From NCBI GenBank assembly GCA_903868115.1, contig CAIPUA010000302.1, forward strand, positions 1-36,437: a stretch of 36,437 bases of DNA, in the 5' to 3' direction. Shown here one piece after another: positions 31,725-35,172 of this stretch. The stretch is from an uncultured Holophagaceae bacterium. Lineage in GTDB: Bacteria; Acidobacteriota; Holophagae; Holophagales; Holophagaceae. Position 1 is the first letter of the stretch. Every line of letters begins with the position of its first letter. Made by a program: the position numbers and the translations under genes. Below the pieces are notes generated by a model. The model did no database searches and was not told the origin of the DNA. It saw nothing but the letters and a program-made list of their open reading frames with translations.

Positions 31725-32411
31725 ATGCGCCCTGTCATCCAGACCCGCGCCATCACCAAGACCTTTGGCAGCAACGGTACAGCGGTACACGCCCTGCGTG
31801 GCATCGACCTCGATGTGGAGCCGGGTGAATTCATGGCCCTGATCGGCCCCAGCGGCTCCGGGAAATCCACCCTCATGGCCATCCTGGGATGTCTTGACCG
31901 CCCTACGGCGGGGACCTACACACTGGACGGCGAGGAAGTTCAGGGCCTCTCGGGCCGAGAACTGGCCGCCATCCGCAACCGCAAGATCGGGTTCATTTTT
32001 CAGGCCTACAATTTGCTGCCCAAGGCGTCCGTGTTGCGCAATGTCGAACTGCCGCTGCTCTACGGTGGCGTTGGACGCAAGGAACGGCGCGAGCGGGCCC
32101 TGCATCTGCTGGAGCAGGTGGGTATCCCCGAGAAGGCCACCAAGTTGCCGGGAGAGCTTTCCGGCGGCCAGAAACAGCGCGTCTCCATCGCCCGATCCCT
32201 GGCAGCGGGCCCTGCCCTGCTACTGGCCGACGAGCCCACCGGTGCTCTGGATTCCAAAACCGGCGCCGAGATTCTCGATCTTTTTGGGCAACTCAACGCC
32301 GCTGGCAATACGGTGATCCTGGTGACCCACGATCTTGGCATCGCCGCCATGGCGCGACGACGCGTTGAAATTTCGGATGGACTCATTGCCTGCAGCGAGG
32401 CGACCCCATGA
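31725..32411 (+). CDS. ABC transporter ATP-binding protein, MacB/LolD type
   Basis: 228 residues. GPSGSGKSTLMAILGCLDRPTAG in part (Walker A), IFQAYNLLPKASVLRNVELPL in part (Q-loop), LSGGQKQRVSIAR and LLADEPTGALDSKTG are the hallmarks of the MacB/LolD/FtsE group. It hydrolyses ATP in the cytoplasm to drive the mechanotransmission cycle of its permease. AGGAGA precedes ATG 31725. Its stop overlaps the first permease start in an ATGA arrangement, so they are translationally coupled. Confidence 0.95.
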   Translation: MRPVIQTRAITKTFGSNGTAVHALRGIDLDVEPGEFMALIGPSGSGKSTLMAILGCLDRPTAGTYTLDGEEVQGLSGRELAAIRNRKIGFIFQAYNLLPKASVLRNVELPLLYGGVGRKERRERALHLLEQVGIPEKATKLPGELSGGQKQRVSIARSLAAGPALLLADEPTGALDSKTGAEILDLFGQLNAAGNTVILVTHDLGIAAMARRRVEISDGLIACSEATP

Positions 32412-33661
32412 GCCGCGGCATCCTGCGCGAACGGGTCATCGAAGCCTGGGCTGAGGTCCGGGAAAACCTGGGCCGTGCCTCCCTCCAAAGCCTAGGCGTC
32501 ATGCTCGGGGTGGCCTCGGTGCTGGGTGGGTTTTCCATCACGGATTCCTTCCGTCAGCGCAGCGAGCAGCTTTACGTCAAGCTGGGTGGCCTTGACAAAC
32601 TTACGGTGCAGAACAGTCCGGTGGCTTCCGAGGGCAAGCCCACCGCCCTGCGCGCCGCGAATCTCGGACTCCGCCAGGAAGACCGCGATGACACCGAACA
32701 GATAAGGCCCGAGGATGTGCAGGGCATCTCCATGGTGAAGGGTTTGCGCGCGCGGGTACGCTCGGCCTTTGCAGATCAGGAGCGCTCCGTGAGTGGCATC
32801 GGCGGCGACTTTTTGGCCATAGAGGGCTACGAAGTGGCCCAGGGGCGGGCCCTTACGACCCAGGATCTGGCCGCCGCCGCGCCGGTGGCGCTGCTGGGCA
32901 GCGAGGCCGCTGAGACCTTTTTCCCTTCTGCCAACGCGATCGGCGCCACGATCCGCGTGGGCGATACACCTGTTCAGGTGATTGGCGTCCTGCATGAGCG
33001 CTACTTCCGGTTCAGCAAGGTGGAAGGACGCCACAACATGTTCCGGCGGCAGAACCGACTCATCGCTGTGCCCTCCAGCCTCGTACAGAGGCGCCTGCAG
33101 GGGGACGTTCACGGGCGGTTGGATCGGATCACCTACCGTCTCCCTAAGATCGACGCCATGCCCGCCTTTACCCAGGCGCTGCGCAGCATCCTCAAACCCA
33201 ATCACCGACTGGAGGACGACTTCCGCCTCGACGATGTCCAGGCCCGCATCCGCAAGCGGGATAACAACGGCGAAGCCTACAACATCATCTTCATGCTCAG
33301 CGGCGTGCTCGCCCTGCTGGGGGGAGGCCTGGTCAATGTGAACATTCAACTGGCAGGCCTCAAGGAGCGCGTGAGAGAAGTTGGCATCAAGATGGCCATT
33401 GGCGCGCCAGGGTCCGAAATTTTCAAGGGTTTCATGACGGAGGCCTTGCTGCTCACAGGCCTCGGCGGCCTGGTGGGACTGGTCATTGGCATCGGCTTCT
33501 CCTGGTTCATCACGTTCATTCTGGGTGTGCCGCTGACCATGAGTCTCGCCAGCTTCCTTTGGGCATATTTCATGGCCACGGTCTTCGGCTTCGTCTTTGC
33601 GCTGTATCCAGCCTGGAAGGCCAGCAAGCTCTCTCCAATGGAGGCCTTGCACTATGAATAA
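32408..33661 (+). CDS. MacB/FtsX-type ABC permease 1
   Basis: 417 residues with the MacB layout: one N-terminal helix (AEVRENLGRASLQSLGVMLG onward), a large periplasmic MacB_PCD domain (about 50-285) and three C-terminal helices ending LYPAWKASKLSPMEALHYE. VREVGIKMAIGAPGSEIFKGF in part is the coupling helix that meets the ATPase. It works with the ATPase and the HlyD adaptor to expel a substrate from the periplasmic side; the substrate is unknown. The TAA stop at 33659-33661 is formed by the first bases of an inserted element; the final residues are encoded in the left copy of a 23-bp repeat. Confidence 0.92.
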   Translation: MSRGILRERVIEAWAEVRENLGRASLQSLGVMLGVASVLGGFSITDSFRQRSEQLYVKLGGLDKLTVQNSPVASEGKPTALRAANLGLRQEDRDDTEQIRPEDVQGISMVKGLRARVRSAFADQERSVSGIGGDFLAIEGYEVAQGRALTTQDLAAAAPVALLGSEAAETFFPSANAIGATIRVGDTPVQVIGVLHERYFRFSKVEGRHNMFRRQNRLIAVPSSLVQRRLQGDVHGRLDRITYRLPKIDAMPAFTQALRSILKPNHRLEDDFRLDDVQARIRKRDNNGEAYNIIFMLSGVLALLGGGLVNVNIQLAGLKERVREVGIKMAIGAPGSEIFKGFMTEALLLTGLGGLVGLVIGIGFSWFITFILGVPLTMSLASFLWAYFMATVFGFVFALYPAWKASKLSPMEALHYE

Positions 33662-33776
33662 TCGCAGTGTCTCCCTTCGATGTGATTCGCTCCCTGTGGG
33701 GCCCCGCTCCGCACGCTCCACCGGAGCGTGCTCCACGACCCACATGGTCGCGACCAATGGAGGCCTTGCACTATGA
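33635..33776 (+). repeat. Element insertion 1: 23-bp perfect direct repeats flanking 96 bp
   Basis: The 23 bases at 33635-33657 (starting CCAATGGAGG, the 3' tail of permease 1) are repeated exactly at 33754-33776. The bases just outside the copies differ, so the repeat boundaries are sharp, although the first two bases (CC) also complete a palindrome with the element end. The left copy encodes the last residues of permease 1. The right copy carries GGAGG and the ATG of permease 2. This looks like a target-site duplication. Confidence 0.85.
33658..33753 (+). mobile_element. Small hairpin-forming interspersed element, copy 1 (96 bp)
   Basis: Lies between the two 23-bp repeats. The first 26 bases are unique; the last 70 (33684-33753) match copy 2 at 61 of 70 positions without gaps. 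It folds into an outer stem TGTGGG (33695-33700) / CCCACA (33739-33744) and an inner 9-bp stem GCACGCTCC (33711-33719) / GGAGCGTGC (33723-33731). The palindrome GGTCGCGACC (33746-33755) spans its right junction. It encodes no convincing protein, so any movement would need an enzyme supplied elsewhere. Confidence 0.7.
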
Positions 33777-35056
33777 GTGAAGCTGCCCTCCGCCTCCTTC
33801 TTCCGGCCGTCCGGCAGCAATCCCGCCTCGCCTGGGTAGGCCTGTTGTGGGAAGTTGTCATCAGCGGCCTGCGGGAACTCTGGTCCCACAAGCTGCGGTC
33901 CATGCTGACGCTGACACTGCTCACGCTGGGTGTCTTCGCGCTGGTGGTGATGACCAGCGTTATGGATGGCATCGTGGATAAGGTTTCCATGGGCTTCAAG
34001 GGTCTGTCCTTCGATGGCACCATTCAACTCAGCCAGAAGGCTCCCGAGACCACGGAAGAACAGAAGCGTTTCGCCATGAGCCCGGGACTTCGCCACGAGG
34101 ACCTGTCGCGGCTGGCTTCTCCGCATCCGCTCGTGAAGGCCTTCCTTCCTCGCGCCACCAAAGCCGCGACCATTCGCATTGGAACTGGACTGGAGCGCAC
34201 CTTTGCGACGGGTGTCACACCCGAATATTTTCCTTGGCAGAACCGCCCCATCGCCAGTGGTCGAGGGCTAACGGAAGACGACGCCCGTCGCCGCAGCGCC
34301 GTGACCGTACTGGGCGGCAGTCTGGCCTCGAAACTCTTCAACGGCACCGACCCCGTGGGTCGCGCTGTGACGGTGGATGGCCAGAGCTTCCAGGTCATCG
34401 GCGTGCTGGCGCCCCTCCAGATAATGAGTGACGATACCTGGCTGGATGCCAACGGCCTCCTCATGCCCATCGAAGCCTACATGGACCGCATGGATCCCAA
34501 ACACGCCCTGGACCGCCTCTATGTAAAGATGGCGCACAAAGGGGACCTGAACGAAGTAACCTCGGCCCTGCTGTCTCGAGCGAGACAGGCCCATCACGGC
34601 ATCGATGATGTGGAGACCACGGATCTCGCCGCCGAGTTGGTGCGTGCCTACCAGCAGTTCGAGGATCAGATGTGGGGCTGGAAGGTCGTTCTTCAGAGCC
34701 TCGCGGGAACAGTGCTGCTGGTGGGCGGTGTAGGTGTCTTAAGCGTGATGCTCATCTCCTTCTCGGATCGCCGCTACGAGATCGGTCTTCGCAAGGCCAT
34801 GGGCGCGACGGATCAGCAAATTTTTATCCAGTTCCTCCTCGAAGCCGTGGTGCTTGCTGCCCTTGGCGCTCTCGCAGGCACCGTGGCGGGTTCCTTCCTG
34901 TGCCGCCTGCTCTCTTCCAGCTTCCCCTTCGGCCTCGTCGTGAACACATACGGTCTGGTAATGGCGTGGATCGTTGCCCTGTCCTTGGCGATTCTGTTCG
35001 GCCTCTACCCTGCGTTCCGGGCAATGCGACTGTCTCCAATGGAAGCCATGCGCTGA
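33773..35056 (+). CDS. MacB/FtsX-type ABC permease 2
   Basis: 427 residues, MacB layout: N-terminal helix after WEVVISGLRELWSHKLRSML in part, periplasmic domain (about 65-295), and three C-terminal helices. YEIGLRKAMGATDQQIFIQFLLEA in part is the coupling helix, and the end reads MRLSPMEAMR. It is a diverged paralogue of permease 1, so the exporter may use a heterodimer. ATG 33773 is chosen because GGAGG lies nine bases upstream and the residues match the family start. Before the insertion this ATG would have overlapped the end of permease 1 in an ATGAGTGA arrangement. The gene ends in the left copy of a second direct repeat. Confidence 0.9.
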   Translation: MSEAALRLLLPAVRQQSRLAWVGLLWEVVISGLRELWSHKLRSMLTLTLLTLGVFALVVMTSVMDGIVDKVSMGFKGLSFDGTIQLSQKAPETTEEQKRFAMSPGLRHEDLSRLASPHPLVKAFLPRATKAATIRIGTGLERTFATGVTPEYFPWQNRPIASGRGLTEDDARRRSAVTVLGGSLASKLFNGTDPVGRAVTVDGQSFQVIGVLAPLQIMSDDTWLDANGLLMPIEAYMDRMDPKHALDRLYVKMAHKGDLNEVTSALLSRARQAHHGIDDVETTDLAAELVRAYQQFEDQMWGWKVVLQSLAGTVLLVGGVGVLSVMLISFSDRRYEIGLRKAMGATDQQIFIQFLLEAVVLAALGALAGTVAGSFLCRLLSSSFPFGLVVNTYGLVMAWIVALSLAILFGLYPAFRAMRLSPMEAMR

Positions 35057-35172
35057 GGGAATAGTCCCTCCCCGGCGGGATGATTCGCTCTCTGTGGGTC
35101 CCCGCTCCGTGCGCTCCACTGGAGCGCCCTTCGCGACCCACATGGTCGCGACCAATGGAAGCCATGCGCTGA
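35036..35172 (+). repeat. Element insertion 2: 21-bp perfect direct repeats flanking 95 bp
   Basis: The 21 bases at 35036-35056 (starting CCAATGGAAG, the 3' tail and TGA stop of permease 2) are repeated exactly at 35152-35172. The outside bases differ. The repeats begin at the position equivalent to insertion 1, at the codons for the shared ending LSPMEA. The right copy runs straight into the operon terminator. Confidence 0.85.
35057..35151 (+). mobile_element. Small hairpin-forming interspersed element, copy 2 (95 bp)
   Basis: The last 70 bases (35082-35151) are the core shared with copy 1; the first 25 are unrelated to it. The outer stem is TGTGGGTC (35093-35100) / GACCCACA (35135-35142). 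The inner stem is GCGCTCC (35111-35117) / GGAGCGC (35121-35127) with a 3-base loop. One inner-stem pair is A-T in copy 1 and G-C here, a compensatory change. GGTCGCGACC spans the right junction (35144-35153) as in copy 1. Confidence 0.7.

Follow-up and report, generated by a model that had tools for sequence, protein, structure and literature searches.

At 89 of 130 copies of a 71-bp hairpin element from the Holophagaceae, the first 14 nt 3' of the element recur upstream of it with at most two mismatches, compared with 11 of 381 control segments. The copied flank at the 3' end of the element is no chance event. The copied host stretch begins 16–280 bp before the element, with a mode of about 48 bp. 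A reading to which we give about an even chance is that the element is a mobile palindrome, non-autonomous and flanked by a long duplication of variable length, the two copies of which are later kept alike by recombination.

Two elements at neighbouring permease genes

The window, i.e., the whole analysed stretch of 36,437 nucleotides from an uncultured Holophagaceae bacterium, contains two MacB/FtsX-type permease genes with an ABC ATPase and an HlyD protein as neighbours (Table 1). The open reading frame of permease 1 ends with ...TAT GAA TAA, and the ATG of permease 2 (33773) lies within the second of two exact 23-bp repeats that are 119 bp apart from start to start and thus have 96 bp between them. 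A preliminary description of the region had pointed out this perfect repeat and the effect of its removal, and both observations hold: when one repeat and the insert are taken out in silico, CTATGAGTGA is obtained and the stop/start overlap of the permeases is restored. It was also right that the duplication leaves the genes intact, as the second repeat supplies permease 2 with both its GGAGG and its ATG.

The same description treated the whole 96 bp as a hairpin element. A dispersed hairpin is indeed present, but the conserved element is an imperfect palindrome of 71 bp. The 25-bp stretch ahead of it is probably either filler or native sequence that belonged to the first repeat copy and has diverged. 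An element-supplied TAA for permease 1, as earlier suggested, is not required: element-free relatives carry ATGAATAG at this place and G003 retains native ATGAATAGCGGC where the window has the 25-bp stretch, so the TAA looks like a changed native stop. Nor can 23 bp be taken as a set target-duplication length, given where the copied stretch begins at other copies. Because the identity between repeat copies declines with distance from the duplication start, the 23 bp in the window are the part still recognisable.

A second copy of the element, overlooked earlier, occupies the homologous site at the end of permease 2 and is 87% identical to copy 1 over 90 nt. It has its own exact 21-bp repeat, CCAATGGAAGCCATGCGCTGA, which matches permease 2 and differs from the repeat at permease 1, as duplication of local sequence predicts. 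Copy 2 is missing from G001 and G003, which belong to the same genus as the window genome, and has therefore either been gained in this lineage or been lost on two occasions. In G015 the permease 2 tail (also L016) has TGATTCGTGTGGGCTTCTCTAGACCCA directly at the stop codon, resembling a shrunken element.

Table 1. Positions of the permease genes, repeats and elements in the window, and loci of related features in other genomes.
Feature	Position or locus	Strand	Basis or remark
Permease 1, MacB/FtsX type	32408..33661	+	ORF list, Pfam MacB_PCD and FtsX; last codons duplicated
D1, first copy of 23-bp direct repeat, permease 1 tail	33635..33657	+	exact repeat
25-bp stretch between repeat and element copy 1	33658..33682	+	unconserved between loci; similarity profile
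71-bp hairpin element copy 1, TGATTCGCTCC...GGTCGCGA	33683..33753	+	alignment, covariance model, 96.1 bits
D2, second copy of 23-bp repeat	33754..33776	+	abuts 3' end of element copy 1
Permease 2, MacB/FtsX type	33773..35056	+	Pfam
First copy of 21-bp repeat, permease 2 tail	35036..35056	+	
24-bp unconserved stretch ahead of element copy 2	35057..35080	+	
71-bp hairpin element copy 2	35081..35151	+	89.1 bits
Second copy of 21-bp repeat	35152..35172	+	abuts element copy 2; element-free native site in G001, G003, G016
Element after SRP RNA or RNase P RNA	L008, L017, L033, L299, L301, L310, L316, L322, L326, L347, L355; L312		
Cut-off copies of locus A gene	G045:C29, C12, C34; G049:C3; G047:C8; G085:C7:132527		

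Host range and structure of the element family

The source genome contains six to eight related copies. A covariance model built from 17 copies detected the element in 60 of the 77 Holophagaceae genomes, with up to 29 copies per genome and mostly in Geothrix, and in none of 16 genomes from two other families of the class. Named records with the 18-base end pattern of the element belong to Geothrix and other Holophagaceae; matches to this pattern outside the family look like chance. In Rfam the element has no match; a hit at another place in the region was below threshold and due to chance. The end pattern was unmatched in viral contigs, and carriage of the element by phages was rejected on this basis. 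The family is not reported in the open-licence literature that we searched. Elements or element ends also lie a few hundred bases from contig ends (G085:C2, G085:C14, G045:C20, G046:C3, and G080:C9 and C22), which probably makes the copy numbers counted in draft genomes underestimates.

The terminal inverted repeats, in which TTCGCTCCCTGTGGG pairs with CCCACATGGTCGCGA, covary, and the ends of the element are exact and read TGATTC and GCGA. Among 98 aligned copies, 20 of the 23 pairs show changes on both sides and 96.5% of the paired cells hold standard pairs, compared with 37–47% in slid controls and likewise far lower values in shuffled ones; as the alignment was fitted to the covariance model, these statistics lean towards structure. 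The stems contain about equally many G-T (40) and A-C (30) cells. This lack of a G-U excess argues for a DNA palindrome that matters on both strands rather than a one-strand RNA, and a functional RNA on the element strand was rejected for the same reason. Judged from its pairing pattern, the element looks like a DNA-level hairpin.

Two variant forms were seen. In L028, L030, and L034 the hairpins are shorter, keeping the inner arm alone (GCAGGCTCCACCGGAGCCTGC type) within different outer stems, and some have long flanking repeats. In G. fermentans (G045:C9:69503–69705; L086) seven left arms, TGATTCCCTCCCTGTGGGG, follow each other at ∼31 bp, the last one within one full element.

Small size, a palindromic sequence and a dispersed, mostly intergenic occurrence would also suit a REP element dependent on a RAYT transposase, or an RNA element that spreads through reverse transcription. 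We regard these routes as highly improbable. Matches to Y1 transposases were found in 13 of the 77 genomes, with none in G042, G085, G045, and G051, and reverse transcriptases in 23 of 77, with none in G085, G045, G051, and G055; both routes were rejected as the enzymes are missing from several high-copy genomes. The absent G-U excess further speaks against copying of an RNA. REP/BIME sequences resemble the element in being dispersed extragenic palindromes that occur in arrays and at gene ends. However, REPs are 20–40 bp long with a GTAG or CGTC tag (PMC3733652), whereas the element is 71 bp, lacks a GTAG/CGTC end and has flanking duplications, and RAYT is missing from most host genomes.

Flanking duplications and element-free sites

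Flanking repeats accompany most copies elsewhere, not only those in the window, so the refuting condition of the preliminary description, copies at other places without such repeats, does not hold. About a third of the copies have no recognisable repeat. Per-locus medians of the duplication start (24 loci) range from 16 to 270 bp upstream, most being 38–66 bp, and the junction at the 3' end of the element is exact at most loci. The two repeat copies have an identity of 0.97–0.99 in the first 12 bases and of ∼0.45 after 30, on a background of about 0.3–0.4 as measured inside the element. At the start of the copied stretch there is a weak preference for C or G after A or T. A local origin of the unconserved spacers was rejected, their match to the surroundings being overall no better than that of shuffled controls. 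In the recent-looking copy at L328 the identity is 36/36 and then none, ending abruptly before the element; simple target duplication fails to explain such a stop, which is seen in some recent-looking copies.

As a rule the copied stretch extends across the edge of a gene, which can be the 3' end of a protein gene, a 5' end in antisense, or the 3' end of an SRP RNA or RNase P RNA. This siting could reflect selection, a duplication that spans a gene end being harmless. The element lies just 3' of the SRP RNA in several genera and of the RNase P RNA in G050, and the RNA 3' end is duplicated in most of these cases. One target gene tail we take to be groEL. At locus A, extra copies of the gene break off after ...HELIHYKL, where different sequence takes over, and several of them lie at contig ends (L356–L361); these truncated copies look like another repeated element.

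RNA 3' ends and the presumed groEL tail as targets, together with the regeneration of the gene end, recall a mini integrative element, for which a site-specific recombinase would insert at conserved gene ends and the repeats would be attachment-site copies, as for genomic islands at the 3' ends of RNA genes. Genomic islands and homing elements that replace gene 3' ends likewise duplicate and regenerate the tail, with SRP RNA and RNase P RNA among their targets. In contrast to these, the element has a 71-bp core without a gene inside and many targets per element type. With one element end joined to many unrelated target sequences, and a target start that shifts inside one gene, we find such an origin very unlikely.

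Element-free sites exist among the relatives, at the permease 1 site in G001 and G016 and at the permease 2 site in G001, G003, and G016. A comparison of 30 genomes at one gene tail also revealed empty sites, the element being missing from many genomes. As G001 has the left-arm-like ATTCGCTCCTTGGGG at the matching position, it is uncertain whether it represents a clean pre-insertion site. A pre-existing left arm as a required target was rejected, since it is seen at a minority of loci only.

The gene tails of the element-free G070 and G044 equal the sequence right of the element in G068 and G043, respectively, while the left tail in the latter two resembles the tails of other element-bearing species. 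Such mosaics would be expected if a unit of gene tail and hairpin (about 120 bp) entered the same gene in other species by recombination in the tail, e.g., from a small circle or transformed DNA, with the recipient tail becoming the second repeat. The different tails of G051 (CGCACGG to the left, CCCACGG to the right) and the constant length of single units at the 30-genome comparison locus (120–122 bp in 10 of 10 genomes compared) fit the same idea. It nevertheless leaves unexplained how the element arrives at new loci and why unrelated genes share the hairpin. Moreover, the non-coding unit (identity 0.79–0.96) does not clearly exceed the 100 bp of coding sequence beside it (0.75–0.94), and in the closest pair, G075 with the element and G054/G076 without it (91% identical upstream), the tails left and right of the insert in G075 are both native-like. 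We therefore consider this kind of spread improbable.

Insertion or local duplication

The nearest neighbour of an element copy is found at the same locus in another genome for 80 of 111 copies and within the same genome for one of 111. Copies thus group by locus across species and hardly by genome, which means that many are old rather than fresh insertions. The two repeat copies within a genome were in 8/8 groups more alike than first-to-second-copy comparisons between genomes, and tandem units, which show recombination between repeats, occur at L070, L072, L081, L024, L033, and L085. Both the within-genome likeness and the tandem units can be understood if the repeats recombine or are repeatedly re-created. 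At one gene tail (cluster 5) the duplication start and the distance from element to stop vary between species, which favours repeated events, as separate insertions would give.

The orthology of elements by locus across species and genera is also what a hairpin-provoked tandem duplication predicts, and this remains a serious rival although we rate it as rather unlikely. Here the palindrome would be old and fixed, and stalled replication or cleavage at the hairpin base would join its 3' end to an upstream position X, whereupon the stretch from X to the element is tandemly duplicated and the second element lost. The variation of X between species at one locus (seen at cluster 5 and at the presumed groEL tail) agrees with this, as do the true tandem arrays, the left-arm remnants 3' of the second repeat in L014, L016, L012, and L076, and the run of left arms spaced about 31 bp apart in G. 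fermentans. On the other hand, a remnant of the second element is missing at most loci, and microhomology between the element end and the base before X is not clear. Likewise, the right-hand copy being the own gene tail of element-free G070 and G044 suggests that the element and the left tail were added, and copy 2 in the window requires a gain in its lineage or two losses. Insertion and hairpin-provoked duplication differ on whether the element and the repeat arrive together.

Under insertion with a long, variable duplication, the palindromes would form a family of mobile DNA elements, small and non-autonomous and, as far as tested, restricted to Holophagaceae, that enter at gene edges by means of a putative trans-acting enzyme. 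The enzyme would make wide cuts of variable spacing, typically about 40–56 bp and ranging from 16 to 280 bp, and the segment between the cuts would end up on both sides of the element, by which the gene survives. The empty sites at the comparison locus (G070, G044, and G054/G076) and the lack of copy 2 in G001 and G003 count in favour of this reading. Later recombination between the direct repeats may produce deletions, seen as element-free relatives, as well as tandem arrays and repeat copies that change together in each genome. A search for an autonomous parent with distant ends gave none in four Geothrix genomes, the left and right element ends never being far apart at up to two mismatches. 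To our knowledge, no known transposase gives duplications that range from 16 to 280 bp. Somewhat more tentatively, it is possible that the 3' end of a mobile hairpin becomes linked to host sequence at an upstream point, tens to hundreds of bases away, that is chosen freely, the gene-sparing duplication being built by each insertion or activity via an undescribed enzyme or repair route.

Small palindromic repeats usually have short target duplications or none. Bacterial MITEs (QMITE2, ERIC, Chunjie) share with the element a small non-coding sequence, imperfect terminal inverted repeats, a strong hairpin, a mostly intergenic position and flanking direct repeats. The direct repeats of QMITE2 are 7–9 bp (PMC10969869), whereas the duplications described here have no set short length and start at variable distances of 16–280 bp; the element is also GC-rich, and no autonomous partner was seen in the four Geothrix genomes. 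Unusually long target duplications are otherwise found in the IS1202 group (16–28 bp; PMC10132070). Members of this group are, however, full insertion sequences with a transposase, unlike the non-coding element with its longer and variable duplications, and the related ISAjo2 type ends in TGT/ACA while the ends read from the element sequence differ.

Found next to protein genes and next to SRP RNA and RNase P RNA alike, with long duplicates of the neighbouring gene edge that vary in extent, this hairpin family suggests a small repeat, so far undescribed, whose spread or rearrangement leaves genes unbroken. If it transposes, its enzyme would cut unusually wide; if repair is responsible, it would be natural for hairpins to set off tandem duplications of a defined kind. 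The Geothrix species that can be cultured include some that carry a copy at a given locus and some that lack it, so either reading is testable.
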